This document shows positions 50,793-58,307 of a stretch of 64,000 nucleotides of DNA, piece by piece (the stretch's first letter is position 1; every line of letters begins with the position of its first letter). Under the pieces are notes generated by a model. The model did no database searches, was not told where the DNA came from, and saw nothing but the letters and a program-made list of their open reading frames with translations. Made by a program: the position numbers and the translations under genes. The DNA comes from Planctomycetes bacterium ADurb.Bin069 (GTDB taxonomy: Bacteria > Planctomycetota > UBA8108 > UBA8890 > UBA8898): NCBI GenBank assembly GCA_002070955.1, contig MWEK01000021.1, positions 1 to 64,000 on the forward strand, given 5' to 3'.

Positions 50793-52997
50793 TCACGGCC
50801 GCATGGCGGGGTCGCCGAGGAGCACCCATGTGCGGCGGGCCGCGACGCTCCCGAGAGCCGCCTTGGCGGCTTTCGCCGCCTCGCCCACGGTGAGATGCGA
50901 CGCGCCGAAAAGCCGCCGCACGAACTCCCGGTTCATGGCTCCCAGCGTGGCTTGATCGACATAGTCCGAGCAGCCCCACACCGCCGCCGCGCCGCCGCCA
51001 GGCGCAAGCAGCAGAGTCTCGCCGAGCGCCTCCACGGTCGAGTCGTGAAAGCAGCAGTTCAGATCGCACACGCTCGCCACCACGGGCAGGCTCGGGCCGT
51101 TCCCCAGCGCGGCGGCGTCGGCTCCCTCGAGGACGCACCCCCACCAGAAGTCGGCCCAACTCCACCCGCGGTGGTTGACGAAGCGCGGGCCCTGTTCCCA
51201 ACGCCTCAGAAGCTCGCTCCTGACGCCGGCGATGCCCAGATCCGACTCGAAGATCGCGTGGACGTTGAGCGACCTCGGGAACAGCGCCTCGAGAGCGCGG
51301 CTTTCGGCCTCGCAATCGACGCCGCCGGCCGTCGATTCGGCGCACAGCAGCACATCGTTGGTCTGGCGCACCCGCTCGCGGGCGACCAGCTTGGCCGCCA
51401 CCGCCGCCGTCTGCGCGGCGGTTTGCACGGGAAGGCGCCCGATGGCCAGCTCGGCCGTCCCATCGCCGTCCAAGTCGGCGAACCAGTCGTCGGAGGCGGT
51501 CTCCATGAAGACCCCGTCGATGAGTTTGGTCGGCACGAAATCGCAGAACCCGAATCCCATGTAGTTGCGCGGATCGAAGCTCGCGTCGCCCACCAGGAGC
51601 ACATGGGTCGGAGCGGTCCTCCAAACCGCCGCGGCCCGCCCCAGGAAGCTCCTGATGGCATAGGGGCTCGCGTGCCCGTAGTTGTATTCGTCGAAGATGT
51701 CCTGCACATCGACCACCATCACCGACCATCCTTGGCCGGAGCGCAGCGTCACGAGCGGCGCCAAGGCGGCGGCGAAGTCCGCGTGGGTGATAACGACGAG
51801 GTCGGCCCCTCCCGTGATGCGCCCGAGCCGCGAGGGGACGTTGGGCAGCACCGCCGCCGGCTGGTTGGTGGCGCCGCCGGCAAAAACATAGATCGTCCGC
51901 GCTCCCGCGGTGTTGGGCGCGAAAGACGCCGTGTACGCCCCGGCTTCCCGGCGGACCGTGCACCTGAGCGCCACGGGCTGCATGGGTTGCGTGATGTCGA
52001 GCGCGGTGACATCCGAAGTCGTGAAGCCCCGCACCGTCGCGCGCTGCCTGCCCGCGGCGATACAGCGCAGTTCGTTTCCCGTCGCGTGGAAAAGACGCGG
52101 ATACGTCAGGGTGATCTTATCCACGAGGGTGATGTCGGCGGGCGACTCCCGGGCGGCGAGAACGACCTCGTTGGCGCCATCGACCAACCATGACGCCGGC
52201 ACGGTGAACGCCGCCCGGCGCGCGGCCATGTCGGCGAACTGAATCGGCCCCAGCTCGATTCCGTTGAAGCGCACGTTCACGCTGTGGGCGCCGCCCGAGA
52301 CACCCTGCAGAGCGACGTCGAGCACGGCGCTCTCACGCGAGGCGCGGTGCGCCCCCGGCGACTCCACGGCGACCTGCGCCTCGAAAGAGGTCACGACCGG
52401 ACCGAAGAAATTCCCGGCTTCGCCGTTCTTGAGCGACGCCATGTAGATCGTCCGCGGGGAGACCTCGGTCGTGGCGCGAAAACTCGCCGCCGCCGCGGCC
52501 CGGCGCGCGGTCCCGGCGACCGTCGCGATGCGCGCGCCCGATCCCAGCTCCGTGGTGAGCCAGTAGATCTTCGTTCCGGACCACGGAGTGTCGAGGGCCG
52601 TGGCGTAGAATTCGATCCAGGACCTGGGACCGAAGCGCGCGCTGCCGCTATCCGACACGCGCAGAGGGACCTCCACCCCCTCGGCGAACAAACGCAGCGA
52701 AGCACAGCGCGCTCTCGGCGACAAGCCGGCCGCCACCAGCGCCGGCTGGCCCACCCGGTACCAGCCCTCCTTCTCAACCGCCACCTTCACGGCGGCCATC
52801 TCGGCCAGAAGCCACGTGTCGGCCCCGCGCGCCGCCGCGCACGCAAGCGCCGCGCACGCGAAGGCGCACGCCGCCGGAAACACGCGGGACCTGCGCGCGC
52901 CGGCGACGACCTTCGGTGTCGCCCGGCCGCCCGCGCTCGATCCCGGCGTTCTCCCCGCGACAGGCGCCGGTTCCGATACCCGTCGATTCGACCGCAT
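50793..52997 (-). CDS. Secreted C25-family (gingipain-like) cysteine peptidase
   Basis: 734 residues from ATG 52997; a hydrophobic export segment lies at about residues 40-58. The N-terminal third is beta-rich. The catalytic caspase-like domain shows DLVVITHADF, GWSVMVVDVQDIFDEYNYG, THVLLVGDASFDPRNYMG and IGRLPVQT, as in gingipain relatives. The expected catalytic pair should lie in FVNHRGWSWADF and VASVCDLNCCFHD. The usual GHG histidine context is altered here, so I cannot place the His with certainty. The end ALGSVAARRTWVLLGDPAMRP is typical of the domain. A type IX sorting domain is not seen. Probably degrades proteins outside the cell or at its surface. Confidence 0.78.
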   Translation of the reverse strand: MRSNRRVSEPAPVAGRTPGSSAGGRATPKVVAGARRSRVFPAACAFACAALACAAARGADTWLLAEMAAVKVAVEKEGWYRVGQPALVAAGLSPRARCASLRLFAEGVEVPLRVSDSGSARFGPRSWIEFYATALDTPWSGTKIYWLTTELGSGARIATVAGTARRAAAAASFRATTEVSPRTIYMASLKNGEAGNFFGPVVTSFEAQVAVESPGAHRASRESAVLDVALQGVSGGAHSVNVRFNGIELGPIQFADMAARRAAFTVPASWLVDGANEVVLAARESPADITLVDKITLTYPRLFHATGNELRCIAAGRQRATVRGFTTSDVTALDITQPMQPVALRCTVRREAGAYTASFAPNTAGARTIYVFAGGATNQPAAVLPNVPSRLGRITGGADLVVITHADFAAALAPLVTLRSGQGWSVMVVDVQDIFDEYNYGHASPYAIRSFLGRAAAVWRTAPTHVLLVGDASFDPRNYMGFGFCDFVPTKLIDGVFMETASDDWFADLDGDGTAELAIGRLPVQTAAQTAAVAAKLVARERVRQTNDVLLCAESTAGGVDCEAESRALEALFPRSLNVHAIFESDLGIAGVRSELLRRWEQGPRFVNHRGWSWADFWWGCVLEGADAAALGNGPSLPVVASVCDLNCCFHDSTVEALGETLLLAPGGGAAAVWGCSDYVDQATLGAMNREFVRRLFGASHLTVGEAAKAAKAALGSVAARRTWVLLGDPAMRP

Positions 52998-53140: not shown

Positions 53141-54292
53141 TCAGCGCCGCGGGATCGCGTACCTGCCAAGGAGTTGCAGAGGTCTGAGCACATGGGCCGC
53201 GCCGGGGGACGCGCGCCGCCGCACCCAAGCGGGCGGAGTGCTCATGCGCTTCCACAACAAGCGCGCGCGGTCGCCGGTCCGGTCGAGCGCCCGCAGAAAA
53301 TACCCCGGGCTTTGCCTGGCCGGCGCCGCGTCCTCGTCGAAAAGCAGGCGGCAGGCCCGCACCGCCAGCGCGGTCGCCGTACGTTCCGCGTCGAGGACGC
53401 GTTCGATGGCGCGGGGCGCTTCCAGCCCGTACGTCCACGCCGCCACGCGGATGCCCAGGAGCAGCATGCGCCGGGCGCCCAGGCGTTCGGCGCGCGCCAT
53501 GAGATCGAACCACTCCCGCTCGCTCAGCAACCGGCCCAGGGCCGCCACGTCGGCCGGCCAGTCCAGCCGGCGCCAGTTATGGCCGGCGCCGTGGACGCAC
53601 AGGTGGAGCATGGCATCGGCGGGCGCCGGCGTCCGCGCGCGGCCGCCTCCGAGCGCCACGGACACGCTCCGGTCCCACAGCGACGCCGAATCCCGCGCCG
53701 CGCCGAAGTACTCGTCGAGCAGCGCCCAGTGAAGGTCGATGTGCACATCCCCCCGGGGCCGGACAAAGGCATGCTCGCAGCGGGCGAAGAGCGCCGCCGG
53801 ATCATCGGGCAGAGGGAAGTAAGGCCGGTAGCCCTGGGCGCGCACGAGCTCGCACGCCGCCGCGAAATCGCGCCGCGGCACGAGGAGATCGAGATCTCCG
53901 AACTGCCGGCATGATTCCTTTCCGTACAAGAGCGCCCCGAGCGCGGGCCCCTTGACGGCGAGGGCGGGAATCCCCCGGCGCTCAAGCTCGCCGATGACAT
54001 TGAGCAGCTCAGCGGTGAGCACGCAGGCGCGGGCGGCCGCGGCCCGCGCCTGGGCGTGCAGGCGCCCGCGCACATCCGGCGGCACATGGGCCGCGGCGCC
54101 GCACGCGCGGTGCACGAAGAGTGTCAGCCCGTGCAGGCGCGCCTTTCCGAGGAGGGCGTCCCACCGCAGCGGCGCGCGCACGAGCTCGGCGACGGAGGCG
54201 CGCGCCGACGCATCCCACGCGGACCTCACGGCCGCGGCCAGGAGCCGCATGCCGGCGCCGGAACGGGCGCGCGCAAGTTCGGGGGGCATCAT
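53141..54292 (-). CDS. NTP_transf_5-type nucleotidyltransferase (RiPP-like locus gene 6)
   Basis: 383 residues. The nucleotidyltransferase core reads LAVKGPALGALLYG and CRQFGDLDLLVPRRDF, with the metal Asp pair in GDLDLL. Then come VHIDLHWALLDEY and a helical HLCVHGAGHNWRRLDWPAD region. This pattern fits the family of uncharacterised nucleotidyltransferases that accompany lasso-peptide and related clusters, where it goes with an HprK-like kinase. It probably adds a nucleotide to a peptide or to a phosphate placed by the kinase; that is inference. Its ATG overlaps the peptidase stop (ATGA). Last gene of the operon. Confidence 0.78.
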   Translation of the reverse strand: MMPPELARARSGAGMRLLAAAVRSAWDASARASVAELVRAPLRWDALLGKARLHGLTLFVHRACGAAAHVPPDVRGRLHAQARAAAARACVLTAELLNVIGELERRGIPALAVKGPALGALLYGKESCRQFGDLDLLVPRRDFAAACELVRAQGYRPYFPLPDDPAALFARCEHAFVRPRGDVHIDLHWALLDEYFGAARDSASLWDRSVSVALGGGRARTPAPADAMLHLCVHGAGHNWRRLDWPADVAALGRLLSEREWFDLMARAERLGARRMLLLGIRVAAWTYGLEAPRAIERVLDAERTATALAVRACRLLFDEDAAPARQSPGYFLRALDRTGDRARLLWKRMSTPPAWVRRRASPGAAHVLRPLQLLGRYAIPRR

Positions 54293-54741
54293 GGCAAGAC
54301 CGCGCGCACGCAGCGTCCTGCCCGGCGCGCGAACGCGCGCCAGCGCGCAAGGCGTCCGCGCCACACGCCGTGCGCCGTAAGATCGACGCGCGCCCCCTTC
54401 CGCTCAACCGCGACGATCCGGCCGAGCACATCCTCGGCGCGGACGGGCAGATCAGGACCCGAGGCCGCGTCGCCGCGGGTGAGGAACCGCGGCGCTCCGT
54501 CCGCGCCGGCCCCGATGCGGACGACCCGGTGCGCCACGAGACGCGTTCCCCGCCGGAACAAGATGATCTCGCCGCGCGCGATGGCGCCGGGCGCCGCCGG
54601 CGCCGCGATCAGCGTCTCGCCGCCCCGGATCGTCGGACGCATGCTTCCGCCGGGCGCGCAGAACCTGGCGTCGCGGCCGCGCGCAAGGAGTTCGGCGACC
54701 ACCGCCGCCGCCCTGACGGCGGACGTTGCGCGCGTCTCCAT
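54289..54741 (-). CDS. S26B-type signal-peptidase-like protein (RiPP-like locus gene 5)
   Basis: 150 residues. The motif PGGSMRPTIRGGE carries the nucleophile Ser33. The second motif GEIILFRRGTRLVAHRVVRI carries His71 where bacterial LepB has Lys, as in SipW and eukaryotic SEC11 peptidases. RFLTRGDAASGPD supplies the Asp box. No membrane helix precedes the domain, so the protein may act on cytoplasmic peptide. The position next to the precursor and modification genes suggests removal of the leader. It starts 5 nt after the kinase-like gene stop. Confidence 0.75.
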   Translation of the reverse strand: METRATSAVRAAAVVAELLARGRDARFCAPGGSMRPTIRGGETLIAAPAAPGAIARGEIILFRRGTRLVAHRVVRIGAGADGAPRFLTRGDAASGPDLPVRAEDVLGRIVAVERKGARVDLTAHGVWRGRLARWRAFARRAGRCVRAVLP

Positions 54742-54746
54742 GGCCC

Positions 54747-55688
54747 TCAGCCCTCCAGCGCCGCGGCCGCGGCCGCCACGTCGGTTCCCAGGAGATACGC
54801 CACCTCGCACCCGGGAACCCGGTCCGCAATGTCGGCGAGGGCGCCCAGGGTGTACTCCACGGCCGGAGCGGAGTAAAAGGGACAGAACACGCAGGAGTAG
54901 AGCCGCGCCGCGTACGCGGCGCCGCCGACGGGCCGGAAGCGCGGCGTCGCGCCGGCGGTCCCGTCGCGCCGAATGAAGTACACGCGCGCCAGCGGCGCGC
55001 TTCCCGGCGCGCTCAGCGCCGCTTCGCCGTGCCACGGCGTTCCGTGCATGCGCAGCTCGCCCTCGTGCCGCCTGACGACGATGCGGTCGTCGCTGAGGAC
55101 CACCGCCCCAGCGTGCCGTTCCCAGTGCCGCGCCATGGTGGTCTTGCCCGCGCCCGACTGGCCGACGAAGAGATGCCCGCGGCCGGCTCCATCCACGATT
55201 CCGCAGGCGTGCAGTTCGACGCCGCGCCCCGCGGCCAGAAGATGGGTCACGAGCAATTCGTCCAGCGGGTAGCCGAGAGGATAGAACGCGGCGCCCTCGC
55301 CGAAGTACGGGCGGTGATACACGACCTCGCCGCGGGCGAAATCCCGGGAGAAGCGCGCCTTGCGCACCGGCACGGCCCCAAACGCCGGCGATCGGAAGCT
55401 GAAGGCGAGCCCGTCCCCGTCCTCGTGAAGCCGCCAGTGCGCGCCCGAATCGAAGACCTCGCGGCCGGCGGGCGCGTCGAAGAGTTCGCCCCACGCGACC
55501 TCCACCCGCGCGTCCGGGACCGCGCCCTCCGTTTGGAAGCGGGCGACCGCGCCTTCGAGCGCGATGCGCGGACCGCCGTCCGTCGCGGCCAACTCGATCA
55601 AGAGGCCGCCGATGGCGATTTGCCGCGAGGCGGCGCGCTGGACCGACGTTCCGTGCAACACTCTCTGCTCCGCGGGCCCGCGGTTCAC
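54747..55688 (-). CDS. HprK-like P-loop kinase (RiPP-like locus gene 4)
   Basis: 313 residues. A Walker A GQSGAGKTT sits at about 176-184, followed by VVLSDDRIVVRRH, the second motif of HPr kinase/phosphorylase-like proteins. The first 150 residues are a separate beta-rich domain with a YHRPYFGEGAAFYPLG loop. A late Cys pair (SCVFCPF) is unusual. Such kinases are found in lasso-peptide and related clusters, where they phosphorylate the peptide or a partner. The GTG start at 55688 overlaps the precursor stop (GTGA), indicating tight coupling. Confidence 0.78.
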   Translation of the reverse strand: MNRGPAEQRVLHGTSVQRAASRQIAIGGLLIELAATDGGPRIALEGAVARFQTEGAVPDARVEVAWGELFDAPAGREVFDSGAHWRLHEDGDGLAFSFRSPAFGAVPVRKARFSRDFARGEVVYHRPYFGEGAAFYPLGYPLDELLVTHLLAAGRGVELHACGIVDGAGRGHLFVGQSGAGKTTMARHWERHAGAVVLSDDRIVVRRHEGELRMHGTPWHGEAALSAPGSAPLARVYFIRRDGTAGATPRFRPVGGAAYAARLYSCVFCPFYSAPAVEYTLGALADIADRVPGCEVAYLLGTDVAAAAAALEG

Positions 55689-55885
55689 GACCCGAGCACC
55701 ACGCAGCCGAATTGGCCGCAGGTGGAGAAACTGCTGCTCCCGTAGCCGCCGGGCGCCTTGCAGCCGGCGAGAACCGCCTCCTCGGGCCTGAGGGGCACCA
55801 GGCCCACGGCCGGCTTTTCGTAGGGCTTGCGCGCTCCCCGGTTCGGCGCGGCCGAGCCGCGGCGCGCGTCAGACAGCGCCGACAT
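55685..55885 (-). CDS. RiPP-like precursor peptide candidate (gene 3)
   Basis: 66 residues. The leader part ends in KPYEKPAVGLVPLRPEEAVL, whose K-P-Y..P and RPEEAVL elements recur in short peptides next to radical SAM genes. The core has three cysteines (42, 56, 61) in a Gly/Ser-rich setting (GCKAPGGYGSSSFSTCGQFG). GGAGG lies 7 nt before the ATG at 55885, which is inside the last codons of the radical SAM gene (17-nt overlap). No homology to a known bacteriocin was recognised. It is predicted to be the modified product of the locus. Confidence 0.72.
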   Translation of the reverse strand: MSALSDARRGSAAPNRGARKPYEKPAVGLVPLRPEEAVLAGCKAPGGYGSSSFSTCGQFGCVVLGS

Positions 55886-57029
55886 TACCCACCTCCGCGC
55901 GCCGCGGCGGCGGCGCGTCTTCCACGCAGTACTCGCACGGCCCGTGCGGCGCAATCTCCATGCCGAAGGCCCGCGCCCGCAGGTGCGCCACGCGGCAGAG
56001 GAAATCCACGGGCGTCTCCCCGTCGCCGCCGGCAAGCATTCCCTGCGCCGGGCACATGCCGCACAGCGGCGCAAGCGAACAGTCCGTGCACTTCGTGCGG
56101 CGCGTGATCTCCGCGCCGCGAATGCAGGGCATCCACTCTTCCCAACCGGCGCGGAATCCGCCGCGCCGCACATCGAACCCCTCGCCCGCCGACAGCGAGC
56201 AAAGGCGCAGCATGCCGTAAGGATCCACCGTGAAGGCCATGGTCCCGCCGCCGCAGCGATACCGCGTCCGCTCCCCGCCCGCGGCGCCGCCCAGCCGCGC
56301 CGCCAGGCGCCGCCATTCCGCGGCCCGCGCCGGATCTTCCCGGTCGATGGCGACGATCCGCTCGGCGCTCAGGCGGTACCGGAGGGGCTCGGCGCCGCCG
56401 TCCAAGCGACCGTGGATCATGGGATCGACCTTGAAAGCGCAGCCGAACTCCTCCTCGGCGAGGCGCCGCATGCTCTCCCGTTCGTGTTGATTGATGGTGA
56501 GCAGCATGCTCTTCAGGCGCAGCGGGACCGCGCGTTCCCGAAGCAGCCGGATGCCCCGCAAACAGCGGGCGAAGGACCCCGGAACGCGCGTGACGCGCTC
56601 GTAGGTCTCCGCGGTGCTCCCGTACAGGGTGATCTCCGTGTAGAACGGGCGATATTCCGCCAGCAGGTCGGCCAGGGCCGGCGTGAGGAGCACCCCGTTC
56701 GTGAAGAGGATGACCAGAAGCCCCCGGCGCTTGGCGTGCAGGTAGATTTCCGCGAAGTCCCCGCGGGTCAAGACCTCGCCGCCCGTAAGCAGCACCCACA
56801 AGGCACCGGCCTCCGCGATCTCGTCGATCAGGCGGAAATGCTCCTCCGTCGAGAGTTCGCGCCCGGCCGCCGCGCGGTCCCCCGGGGGCAGGTTGTTGTA
56901 GCAGTGGACGCACGCCAGCGGGCAGCGATGCGTAAGCTCGATGACCGCATCGACGGGCAGGCGTCGCGCATGGGCGCGGCGGTGAACCCCCAGGCTGAAC
57001 TCCGCGTAGGCGCGCTGCTCCACCGTCAT
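55869..57029 (-). CDS. Radical SAM/SPASM peptide-modifying enzyme (gene 2)
   Basis: 386 residues. The 4Fe-4S cluster for SAM is bound by Cys36, Cys40 and Cys43 in THRCPLACVHCYNN. LLTGGEVLTRGD is the SAM-binding GGE segment. The C-terminal SPASM domain has auxiliary-cluster cysteines in RYRCGGGTMAF, CSLSAGEGFD and TKCTDCSLAPLCGMC. SPASM enzymes cross-link or oxidise peptides (as in mycofactocin, PQQ and sactipeptide synthesis). Its ATG overlaps the PqqD-like stop (ATGA). The overlapping 66-residue Cys peptide is the obvious substrate. Confidence 0.9.
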   Translation of the reverse strand: MTVEQRAYAEFSLGVHRRAHARRLPVDAVIELTHRCPLACVHCYNNLPPGDRAAAGRELSTEEHFRLIDEIAEAGALWVLLTGGEVLTRGDFAEIYLHAKRRGLLVILFTNGVLLTPALADLLAEYRPFYTEITLYGSTAETYERVTRVPGSFARCLRGIRLLRERAVPLRLKSMLLTINQHERESMRRLAEEEFGCAFKVDPMIHGRLDGGAEPLRYRLSAERIVAIDREDPARAAEWRRLAARLGGAAGGERTRYRCGGGTMAFTVDPYGMLRLCSLSAGEGFDVRRGGFRAGWEEWMPCIRGAEITRRTKCTDCSLAPLCGMCPAQGMLAGGDGETPVDFLCRVAHLRARAFGMEIAPHGPCEYCVEDAPPPRRAEVGNVGAV

Positions 57030-57322
57030 GGCTCCTCGGCCCGGATGAGCCCGGCGCCGGCCAGTTGCGCCAGAAACTCGCGGACATCGCGTTCGGCATC
57101 GGCGCGCGGCACGTCGTATTCCTCGGCGAGCGCCGCCGCCAGGTCCTCGGCCGCGGCGCGGCCGTCGATTCGCCGCCAGATCGCGGCGCCCGAGCCGTTC
57201 AACACGTAGGCCCCCTCCAGGTCGCCCACGCGCCCCCGGACGGGAACGACGATGATTTCCCCGCCGATATCGCGCGTCACGAGATTCGCATCGATGGCAA
57301 ACACTTCCGCCGGCATACCCAT
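57026..57322 (-). CDS. PqqD-like peptide-recognition protein (gene 1)
   Basis: 98 residues. It has the winged-helix PqqD layout: ANLVTRDIGGEIIVVPV strands, YVLNGSGAAIWRRIDG, AEDLAAALAEEYD and a C-terminal helix VREFLAQLAGAGLIRAE. PqqD domains bind the leader of the precursor and present it to the radical SAM enzyme. ATG 57322 or 57316 are both possible; GGGGGAAG lies upstream. It is the first gene of the chain of six overlapping or near-overlapping genes. Confidence 0.85.
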   Translation of the reverse strand: MGMPAEVFAIDANLVTRDIGGEIIVVPVRGRVGDLEGAYVLNGSGAAIWRRIDGRAAAEDLAAALAEEYDVPRADAERDVREFLAQLAGAGLIRAEEP

Positions 57323-57401: not shown

Positions 57402-58307
57402 TTACAGGCCCTTGCGGCCTCGGGCCATGCCAGCCGCGGCCAGAACGCGCTCGACGCCGGGGAACCTTCCGTCCCGGCCGCGCAGCACGCACACCCGCGG
57501 GCCGAGCGGCCGCCACAGCGCGGGGTCGCTGGGCCCGAACACCGCCACCGTGGGCGTACCGAGCGCTCCCGCGACGTGCGTGATCCCCGAATCGTTTCCC
57601 ACGTACAGCCCGGCGCGCATGAGCAGCCCCGCGAGGGCGACAAGCGGCAAGCGCACGACCTCGGCCGCGGTGCCGTCCGTCGCCGCCGCGACGGCCTCCG
57701 CGTCGGCTTCTCCGCAGGGCACGCGCACCGCGCAGCCGCGTTCGAGCGCGCGGGCGATCACCGCGCGAAAACGCGCGGCGGGCCAGTTCTTCACCGCGCT
57801 CCCGCTCCCCGGATGAACGACGGCCAGCGGAAGCGGCGCGTCCTCGGGGCAGGGCAGGGCGCGGGCGATCAGCGCCCGGCCCTCGGGGAACTCGGCGCTG
57901 CCCCAGGGCGCGAGCACGGCGAAGAGCTGCCGCGCCGCGTGCGCCCCGGGCCGCAGGCCCGCGAACGACACGAGTTCCCCCGCGCCGTGCGCCCGCAATC
58001 GGCGCGCGATCGCGCCGTCGGGATCGGCCAAAAGGGACACGACGCGGTCGAAGCTCCCCACGAAGTCGGCGAGCGCCCGGCACGGGGCGCGCTCGGCCGG
58101 AGCGAAAAGCGGCGCGAAGAACGCGTCCGAAAGGTCGCGCTCCGTGTCGGCCAGCCCCGCCGCGACAGCCAGCAGCCGCGCCTCGGTCCTGGCCGCCAGG
58201 CACAGGTGCGCGCCGGCATCGCGGGCCCGCAGCCCATGCAGGACGGGGTAGCCCAGCACGACATCGCCGACGGCGCCCGCCCGCAGGATGAGAATTCGTT
58301 CCGACAT
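57402..58307 (-). CDS. Family 9 glycosyltransferase (heptosyltransferase-like)
   Basis: 301 residues with a GT-B fold. The N-terminal half starts RILILRAGAVGDVVLGYPVL. The C-terminal half holds VVHPGSGSAVKNWPAARF (the Lys typical of heptosyltransferases) and YVGNDSGITHVAGALGTPTV. It transfers heptose or another sugar to a lipid-linked core at the inner membrane. It agrees with the heptose kinase at 28.8 kb in pointing to an LPS-like outer membrane. It precedes the PqqD-like gene by 79 nt on the same strand and may be part of the same transcript. Confidence 0.85.
   Translation of the reverse strand: MSERILILRAGAVGDVVLGYPVLHGLRARDAGAHLCLAARTEARLLAVAAGLADTERDLSDAFFAPLFAPAERAPCRALADFVGSFDRVVSLLADPDGAIARRLRAHGAGELVSFAGLRPGAHAARQLFAVLAPWGSAEFPEGRALIARALPCPEDAPLPLAVVHPGSGSAVKNWPAARFRAVIARALERGCAVRVPCGEADAEAVAAATDGTAAEVVRLPLVALAGLLMRAGLYVGNDSGITHVAGALGTPTVAVFGPSDPALWRPLGPRVCVLRGRDGRFPGVERVLAAAGMARGRKGL

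Follow-up and report, generated by a model that had tools for sequence, protein, structure and literature searches.

The Operon and Its Proposed Product

What product is made by the compact operon at positions 53141-57322 of the window (the whole 64,000-nucleotide stretch analyzed here, which belongs to a 4.55-Mb draft genome of 88.5% completeness)? All six of its open reading frames lie on the minus strand, present in the order and at the positions that a sequence-only reading of this DNA had given (Table 1). That reading described every junction as an ATGA or GTGA overlap or a 5-nt gap, which holds with the exception of the radical SAM and peptide genes: these overlap by 17 nt. To judge from sequence comparisons, the operon probably makes a ribosomally synthesized and post-translationally modified peptide (RiPP) that is modified by the radical SAM enzyme and phosphorylated at a C-terminal Ser or Thr, with trimming by a soluble S26-like peptidase and with a secreted C25 peptidase as the product's candidate partner. 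The C25 gene next to the six operon genes had been missed by the sequence-only reading. On the other side, a GT9-family glycosyltransferase gene is located 80 nt upstream of the PqqD gene, of which the source genome has a single copy, and is possibly the first gene of the transcription unit. It precedes the PqqD gene in the congeneric locus L002 as well, its candidate membership in the system being limited to these two loci.

Table 1. Features of the operon and its flanks, in the direction of transcription.
Feature	Position	Strand	Evidence
GT9-family glycosyltransferase	57402..58307	-	PF01075 4.1e-28
PqqD-family RiPP recognition protein	57026..57322	-	PF05402 1e-21
Radical SAM/SPASM peptide maturase	55869..57029	-	PF04055 1.4e-20
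Precursor peptide, 66 aa	55685..55885	-	homologues in several phyla; apparent purifying selection
HprK-like kinase, GTG start	54747..55688	-	H160, K182, D200, D201; HprK/P and PEPCK model matches
Soluble S26B-like peptidase, candidate leader peptidase	54289..54741	-	TIGR02228 4e-13
NTP_transf_5 nucleotidyltransferase	53141..54292	-	PF14907 6.4e-55
Sigma-70-like promoter TTGCCG-16-TATACT before C25 gene	53026..53053	-	one site vs 0.0 ± 0.1 in shuffles
Secreted C25 (gingipain-like) peptidase	50793..52997	-	PF01364 3.1e-65

The Precursor Peptide Family

The 66-residue peptide family matched no Pfam or NCBIfam profile, the best scores being those of paeninodin-family hits (E 0.07). Comparison of the window peptide with its congeneric homologue, to which it is 86% identical, revealed 5, 5 and 15 differences at the first, second and third codon positions, which points to a translated reading frame under purifying selection. 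Since this codon pattern is accompanied by homologues in the corresponding position of the operon in other phyla, the peptide gene can be regarded as real. The window precursor has the leader RKPYEKPAVGLVPLRPEEAVLAGCK, conserved cysteines at positions 42, 56 and 61, and the C-terminal residues LGS. A [YW]xxP...EEAVLxxCK leader and three cysteines are common to the family: among 26 aligned representatives, the Pro of [YW]xxP and all three Cys are invariant, and the Leu before the first Cys is nearly so. The motif LAGC was rejected as a lipobox on account of the charged residues before it and the lack of a signal peptide.

The C-terminus is strongly restricted, with Ser or Thr as the last residue in 52 of 54 distinct precursors. 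After thinning to less than 60% identity this was the case for 34 of 36 sequences (binomial p 5.7e-22, with the 20% Ser/Thr of the rest of the core as baseline and the thinned sequences treated as independent, which they are not fully), and Gly or Ala preceded the terminal residue in 23 of the 36. Two precursors with an adjacent kinase gene end otherwise, namely in ATP (L006) and CAM (L048). Unrelated small reading frames with a YxxP motif and a terminal Ser, chosen by eye, were also seen near other radical SAM-HprK-S26 loci (L159, 7007-7204; L161, 12371-12538).

Recurrence of the Gene Set Across Phyla

The precursor family was found in Planctomycetota, Chloroflexota and Acidobacteriota/Aminicenantes, as well as in single genomes labelled as betaproteobacterial, deltaproteobacterial and Gemmatimonad. 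When the radical SAM protein was searched against GTDB genomes, eight clear relatives were detected, a ninth and weak match (26%) being left out: one, with 89% identity, is from a Planctomycete, and the others are by label one betaproteobacterial, one deltaproteobacterial, one Gemmatimonad, two Anaerolineaceae and two Aminicenantes proteins. Near all eight, a homologous small reading frame and an HprK-like gene are present. Profile searches with the precursor matched 11 of 294 genomes in the phylum of the window, 13 of 201 in that of the Anaerolineaceae genome and 26 of 199 in that of the Aminicenantes genome. The deltaproteobacterial genome was the sole match within its phylum, and the phylum sampled around the Gemmatimonad genome comprises two genomes only. 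The weakest matches are doubtful (e.g., L018-L021, E near 1e-3); L018-L021 were not counted, as they have no Cys core or no neighbours. One of them, L019, holds unrelated precursor-like reading frames with a similar leader and repeated CxxGD units, and no HprK gene nearby.

Across the 48 precursor loci, a radical SAM gene was found in 43, an HprK-like gene in 43, a PqqD gene in 40 and an S26 gene in 34; the S26 gene is absent within reach in the remaining 14, some loci being truncated and many of the genomes drafts. In the neighbourhood analysis, which the sequence-only reading had proposed as a check, the genes proved to be conserved together, the set of PqqD, radical SAM, precursor, HprK and S26 genes recurring across phyla. 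No conserved dedicated exporter was found at the related loci.

The Chloroflexota genome G311 has seven precursor copies, on contigs 525, 552, 92, 449, 274, 481 and 191. Six of them are near-identical, and five of these six lack operon enzymes in the stretches examined. On contig 552 (L115, 2653-11125), an orphan precursor has as neighbours a LanM-type lanthipeptide synthetase (DUF4135 and LANC_like) and a C39-peptidase ABC transporter, which suggests that RiPP machinery of another type can process related precursors. In two genomes, the surroundings of the operon encode a membrane sulfatase-like protein (PF00884; L121, 6415-8583; L028, 6161-8161).

The HprK-Like Kinase and the C-Terminal Residue

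The kinase is divergent, reaching the family cut-off neither in Pfam (Hpr_kinase_C 0.024) nor in NCBIfam (HprK_rel_B 1.6e-6). However, a profile of seven kinase homologues matched solved HprK at 1.7e-4, and an AlphaFold2 model (pLDDT 81) matched PEPCK and HprK/P in Foldseek searches (1e-5 to 1e-6, with moderate TM-scores), in agreement with the fold and P-loop of the HprK/PEPCK group. His160 and Lys182 are present in all 43 homologues, as are acidic residues (D/E) at positions 200 and 201. The HprK kinases of lasso peptide clusters need a His-Lys-Asp-Asp set and phosphorylate the C-terminal Ser of the precursor, the rest of its sequence mattering little (PMC9266682; PMC8498205), whereas their homologue BsfK phosphorylates the internal Ser3 instead (PMC10368454). 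Both traits of the lasso type, the catalytic set and a precursor ending in Ser/Thr, were thus encountered here. In Aminicenantes, moreover, the kinase domain is fused to a radical SAM domain, which ties the two activities together.

We propose that the HprK-like kinase phosphorylates the C-terminal Ser/Thr of the precursor, this residue being the likely phosphate acceptor by sequence and C-terminal phosphorylation the most economical reading of the kinase data, because the lasso kinase precedent, the intact catalytic set and the radical SAM fusion all converge on it. That the kinase acts on some other protein or has a regulatory role, the terminal Ser/Thr serving as a recognition or stability signal, for instance for the peptidase, is unlikely: HprK homologues do regulate other proteins as well, and the divergence of this one leaves room for such a role, but its gene directly follows the precursor gene in the operon, its catalytic residues are all retained, it is fused to a radical SAM domain in Aminicenantes, and a restriction to Ser and Thr at the terminus is chemically meaningful.

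The Radical SAM Maturase and PqqD

The SPASM cysteines of the radical SAM protein were read by hand, as the Pfam SPASM profile gave no score on the window protein; they and the CxxxCxxC motif are kept in the homologues. The protein scores below every NCBIfam equivalog cut-off, and its best full-length matches include the mycofactocin maturase and PqqE. By analogy with lasso B1 proteins and their YxxPxL motif, PqqD would bind the precursor leader at [YW]xxPx[LVI], and the radical SAM/SPASM enzyme would then modify the core, most likely by one or more links involving the three conserved cysteines.

The similarity to the mycofactocin maturase and PqqE, the absence of a conserved exporter and the wide distribution of the system would also suit a redox-cofactor pathway of the PQQ or mycofactocin kind, in which the peptide is the scaffold for one excised small molecule. 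This is improbable, considering that the precursor cores differ in length and sequence, keep three cysteines and lack an invariant pair of residues such as PqqA or MftA has, and that no dehydrogenase partner was found among the proteins scanned. A RiPP that undergoes radical chemistry followed by phosphorylation, as the sequence-only reading had suggested, is favored by the conserved gene set, the Cys core, the catalytic residues and the Ser/Thr end.

Leader Removal and Further Decoration

The S26B-like protein reached 49.5 bits with TIGR02228, slightly below the cut-off of 51.85, and has its Ser in a GGSM and its His in an AHRV motif, the Ser and His motifs being common to the mapped homologues. 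Neither the window protein nor most of its homologues have a hydrophobic, transmembrane-like segment; the long S26 reading frames with such a segment may be fusions or have wrong starts. A membrane-bound SipW was rejected because of the hydropathy, so that of the SipW/SEC11-type leader peptidase proposed earlier the candidate role in leader removal stands and the membrane type does not. The protein looks like a soluble leader peptidase, which would cut off the leader near the EEAVLxxC region.

NTP_transf_5 genes lie near 14 of the 48 precursors, with six of the proteins confirmed by Pfam. This enzyme is recurrent but optional, and its chemistry may differ from the nucleotidylation step of the sequence-only reading: pseudomycoidin, once phosphorylated, receives one or two hexoses from a nucleotidyltransferase (PMC8498205). 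By this analogy, NTP_transf_5 may attach sugars instead of nucleotides to the phosphate, and in the window genome it may, tentatively, decorate the phosphate in the way of the hexose-adding enzyme.

Association With a Secreted C25 Peptidase

The C25 gene of the window is located 144 nt downstream of the operon (PF01364, 221 bits against a cut-off of 23), and it may be transcribed separately because a promoter-like site precedes it. The catalytic Cys of the encoded protein is aligned with the family; the His is shifted, with NHRGW in place of NYIGHG. C25 genes lie within 7 kb of the precursor, always on its strand, in 13 of the 48 loci, which were not selected for C25; an estimated half a locus or so would be expected by chance, with a few C25 genes assumed per several-Mb genome. 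In two further loci (L112 and L121), the distance is about 8 kb. Six genomes have one C25 gene, and in each this gene adjoins the operon (G370, G468, G500, G578, G623 and G665), although these come from a set picked partly because C25 had been seen, so that 13 of 48 is the unbiased figure.

A tree of 38 C25 domains places the window copy in one group (support 99/93) with C25s located next to the operon in the Aminicenantes phylum and with C25s of two genomes that have the operon elsewhere; the three C25 paralogues of the window genome fall far from the operon-adjacent copy. C25s beside the operon and those away from it are not separated into one clade each (8 changes as compared to 12.7 in shuffles). 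By these comparisons, the link between C25 and the operon is strong, though not exclusive. The secreted C25 would be a functional partner of the product, serving as target or regulator of the peptide or processing it at a late stage. A precedent, by analogy only, for a phosphorylated RiPP acting on a protease is phospeptin, which is itself phosphorylated and inhibits elastase (PMC9259500). The full proposal, a new and phylum-spanning class of RiPPs that are radical-SAM-modified, phosphorylated at a C-terminal Ser/Thr and functionally paired with a secreted C25 peptidase, for example as inhibitor, activator or substrate, is put forward as a tentative one that we would not yet favor.

Comparison With Known Systems

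The paeninodin-type clusters with PadeK/ThcoK kinases and the pseudomycoidin cluster with kinase and nucleotidyltransferase resemble the window operon in the PqqD-type binder, the [YW]xxPx[LVI] motif, the H-K-D-D kinase, a precursor ending in Ser and the optional nucleotidyltransferase. A leader of lasso type is indicated by the PqqD match and by [YW]xxP in all aligned precursors. In contrast to those clusters, the operon has a radical SAM/SPASM enzyme, a soluble S26 protein and a three-Cys core, and neither a B2 leader protease nor a C (asparagine-synthetase-like) cyclase was found among its six genes or the neighbours scanned, which upholds the earlier remark on the missing lasso cyclase and led to the rejection of a lasso peptide cluster as the class. 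An unusual lasso system with the radical SAM enzyme as extra tailoring and B2/C enzymes encoded elsewhere is most improbable: the lasso-like leader motif, PqqD, HprK and NTP_transf_5 are all known from lasso clusters, but Pfam scans of the neighbouring proteins yielded no B2/C and the three invariant core cysteines are not a lasso ring pattern.

Sactipeptide and ranthipeptide maturases (AlbA, StsB, PapB) likewise are SPASM radical SAM enzymes acting on a Cys-containing core, whereas the window has a separate PqqD and an added kinase; its maturase scores far below the AlbA, StsB and PapB cut-offs, on which ground this class was rejected. The HPr-rel-A system (TIGR04353 PqqD and partners) shares PqqD and an HprK-like protein, and includes a nucleotidyltransferase module. 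It was rejected on scores below its cut-offs (PqqD narrowly, with 31 against 35; HprK-rel-A unmatched), and the radical SAM and precursor genes are additional to it. Phospeptin, a linear RiPP, is similar in its phosphorylation, here predicted, and its protease link, but its kinase is lanthipeptide-synthetase-like instead of HprK and it lacks a radical SAM enzyme (PMC9259500).

The nearest filed system is SynChlorMet (TIGR04248-04251), which has the same kinds of enzymes: HprK-like ScmC, PqqD-like ScmD and the radical SAM/SPASM proteins ScmE and ScmF, two of the latter as compared to usually one in operons of the window type. None of the window proteins comes near the Scm cut-offs (ScmD 31.8/100, ScmE 79.5/400, ScmC 16.7/125, with ScmF also far below), and on these scores SynChlorMet was rejected as the class; TIGR04247, guessed to be ScmB, is actually the NosD family. 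An S26-like reading frame is present, too, at the true ScmC locus L154, which is the only ScmC-positive contig and begins at the kinase gene. For SynChlorMet, NCBIfam files enzymes and is not known to file a precursor or substrate. The literature searched, with subscription journals largely outside the search, did not describe the combination of HprK, PqqD and radical SAM in RiPPs or of radical SAM with C25. Hence, the earlier suggestion of an undescribed system holds for the exact combination in these sources, with the qualification that a similar cassette, SynChlorMet, already bears a name in NCBIfam.

Implications

The locus provides a testable precursor and acceptor residue for the HprK-like kinases of radical SAM cassettes. 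If the proposed reading is true, C-terminal phosphorylation would extend beyond lasso peptides to RiPPs of the radical SAM kind. A RiPP would also be linked with one specific family of secreted proteases in phyla that are distant from one another and mostly uncultured.
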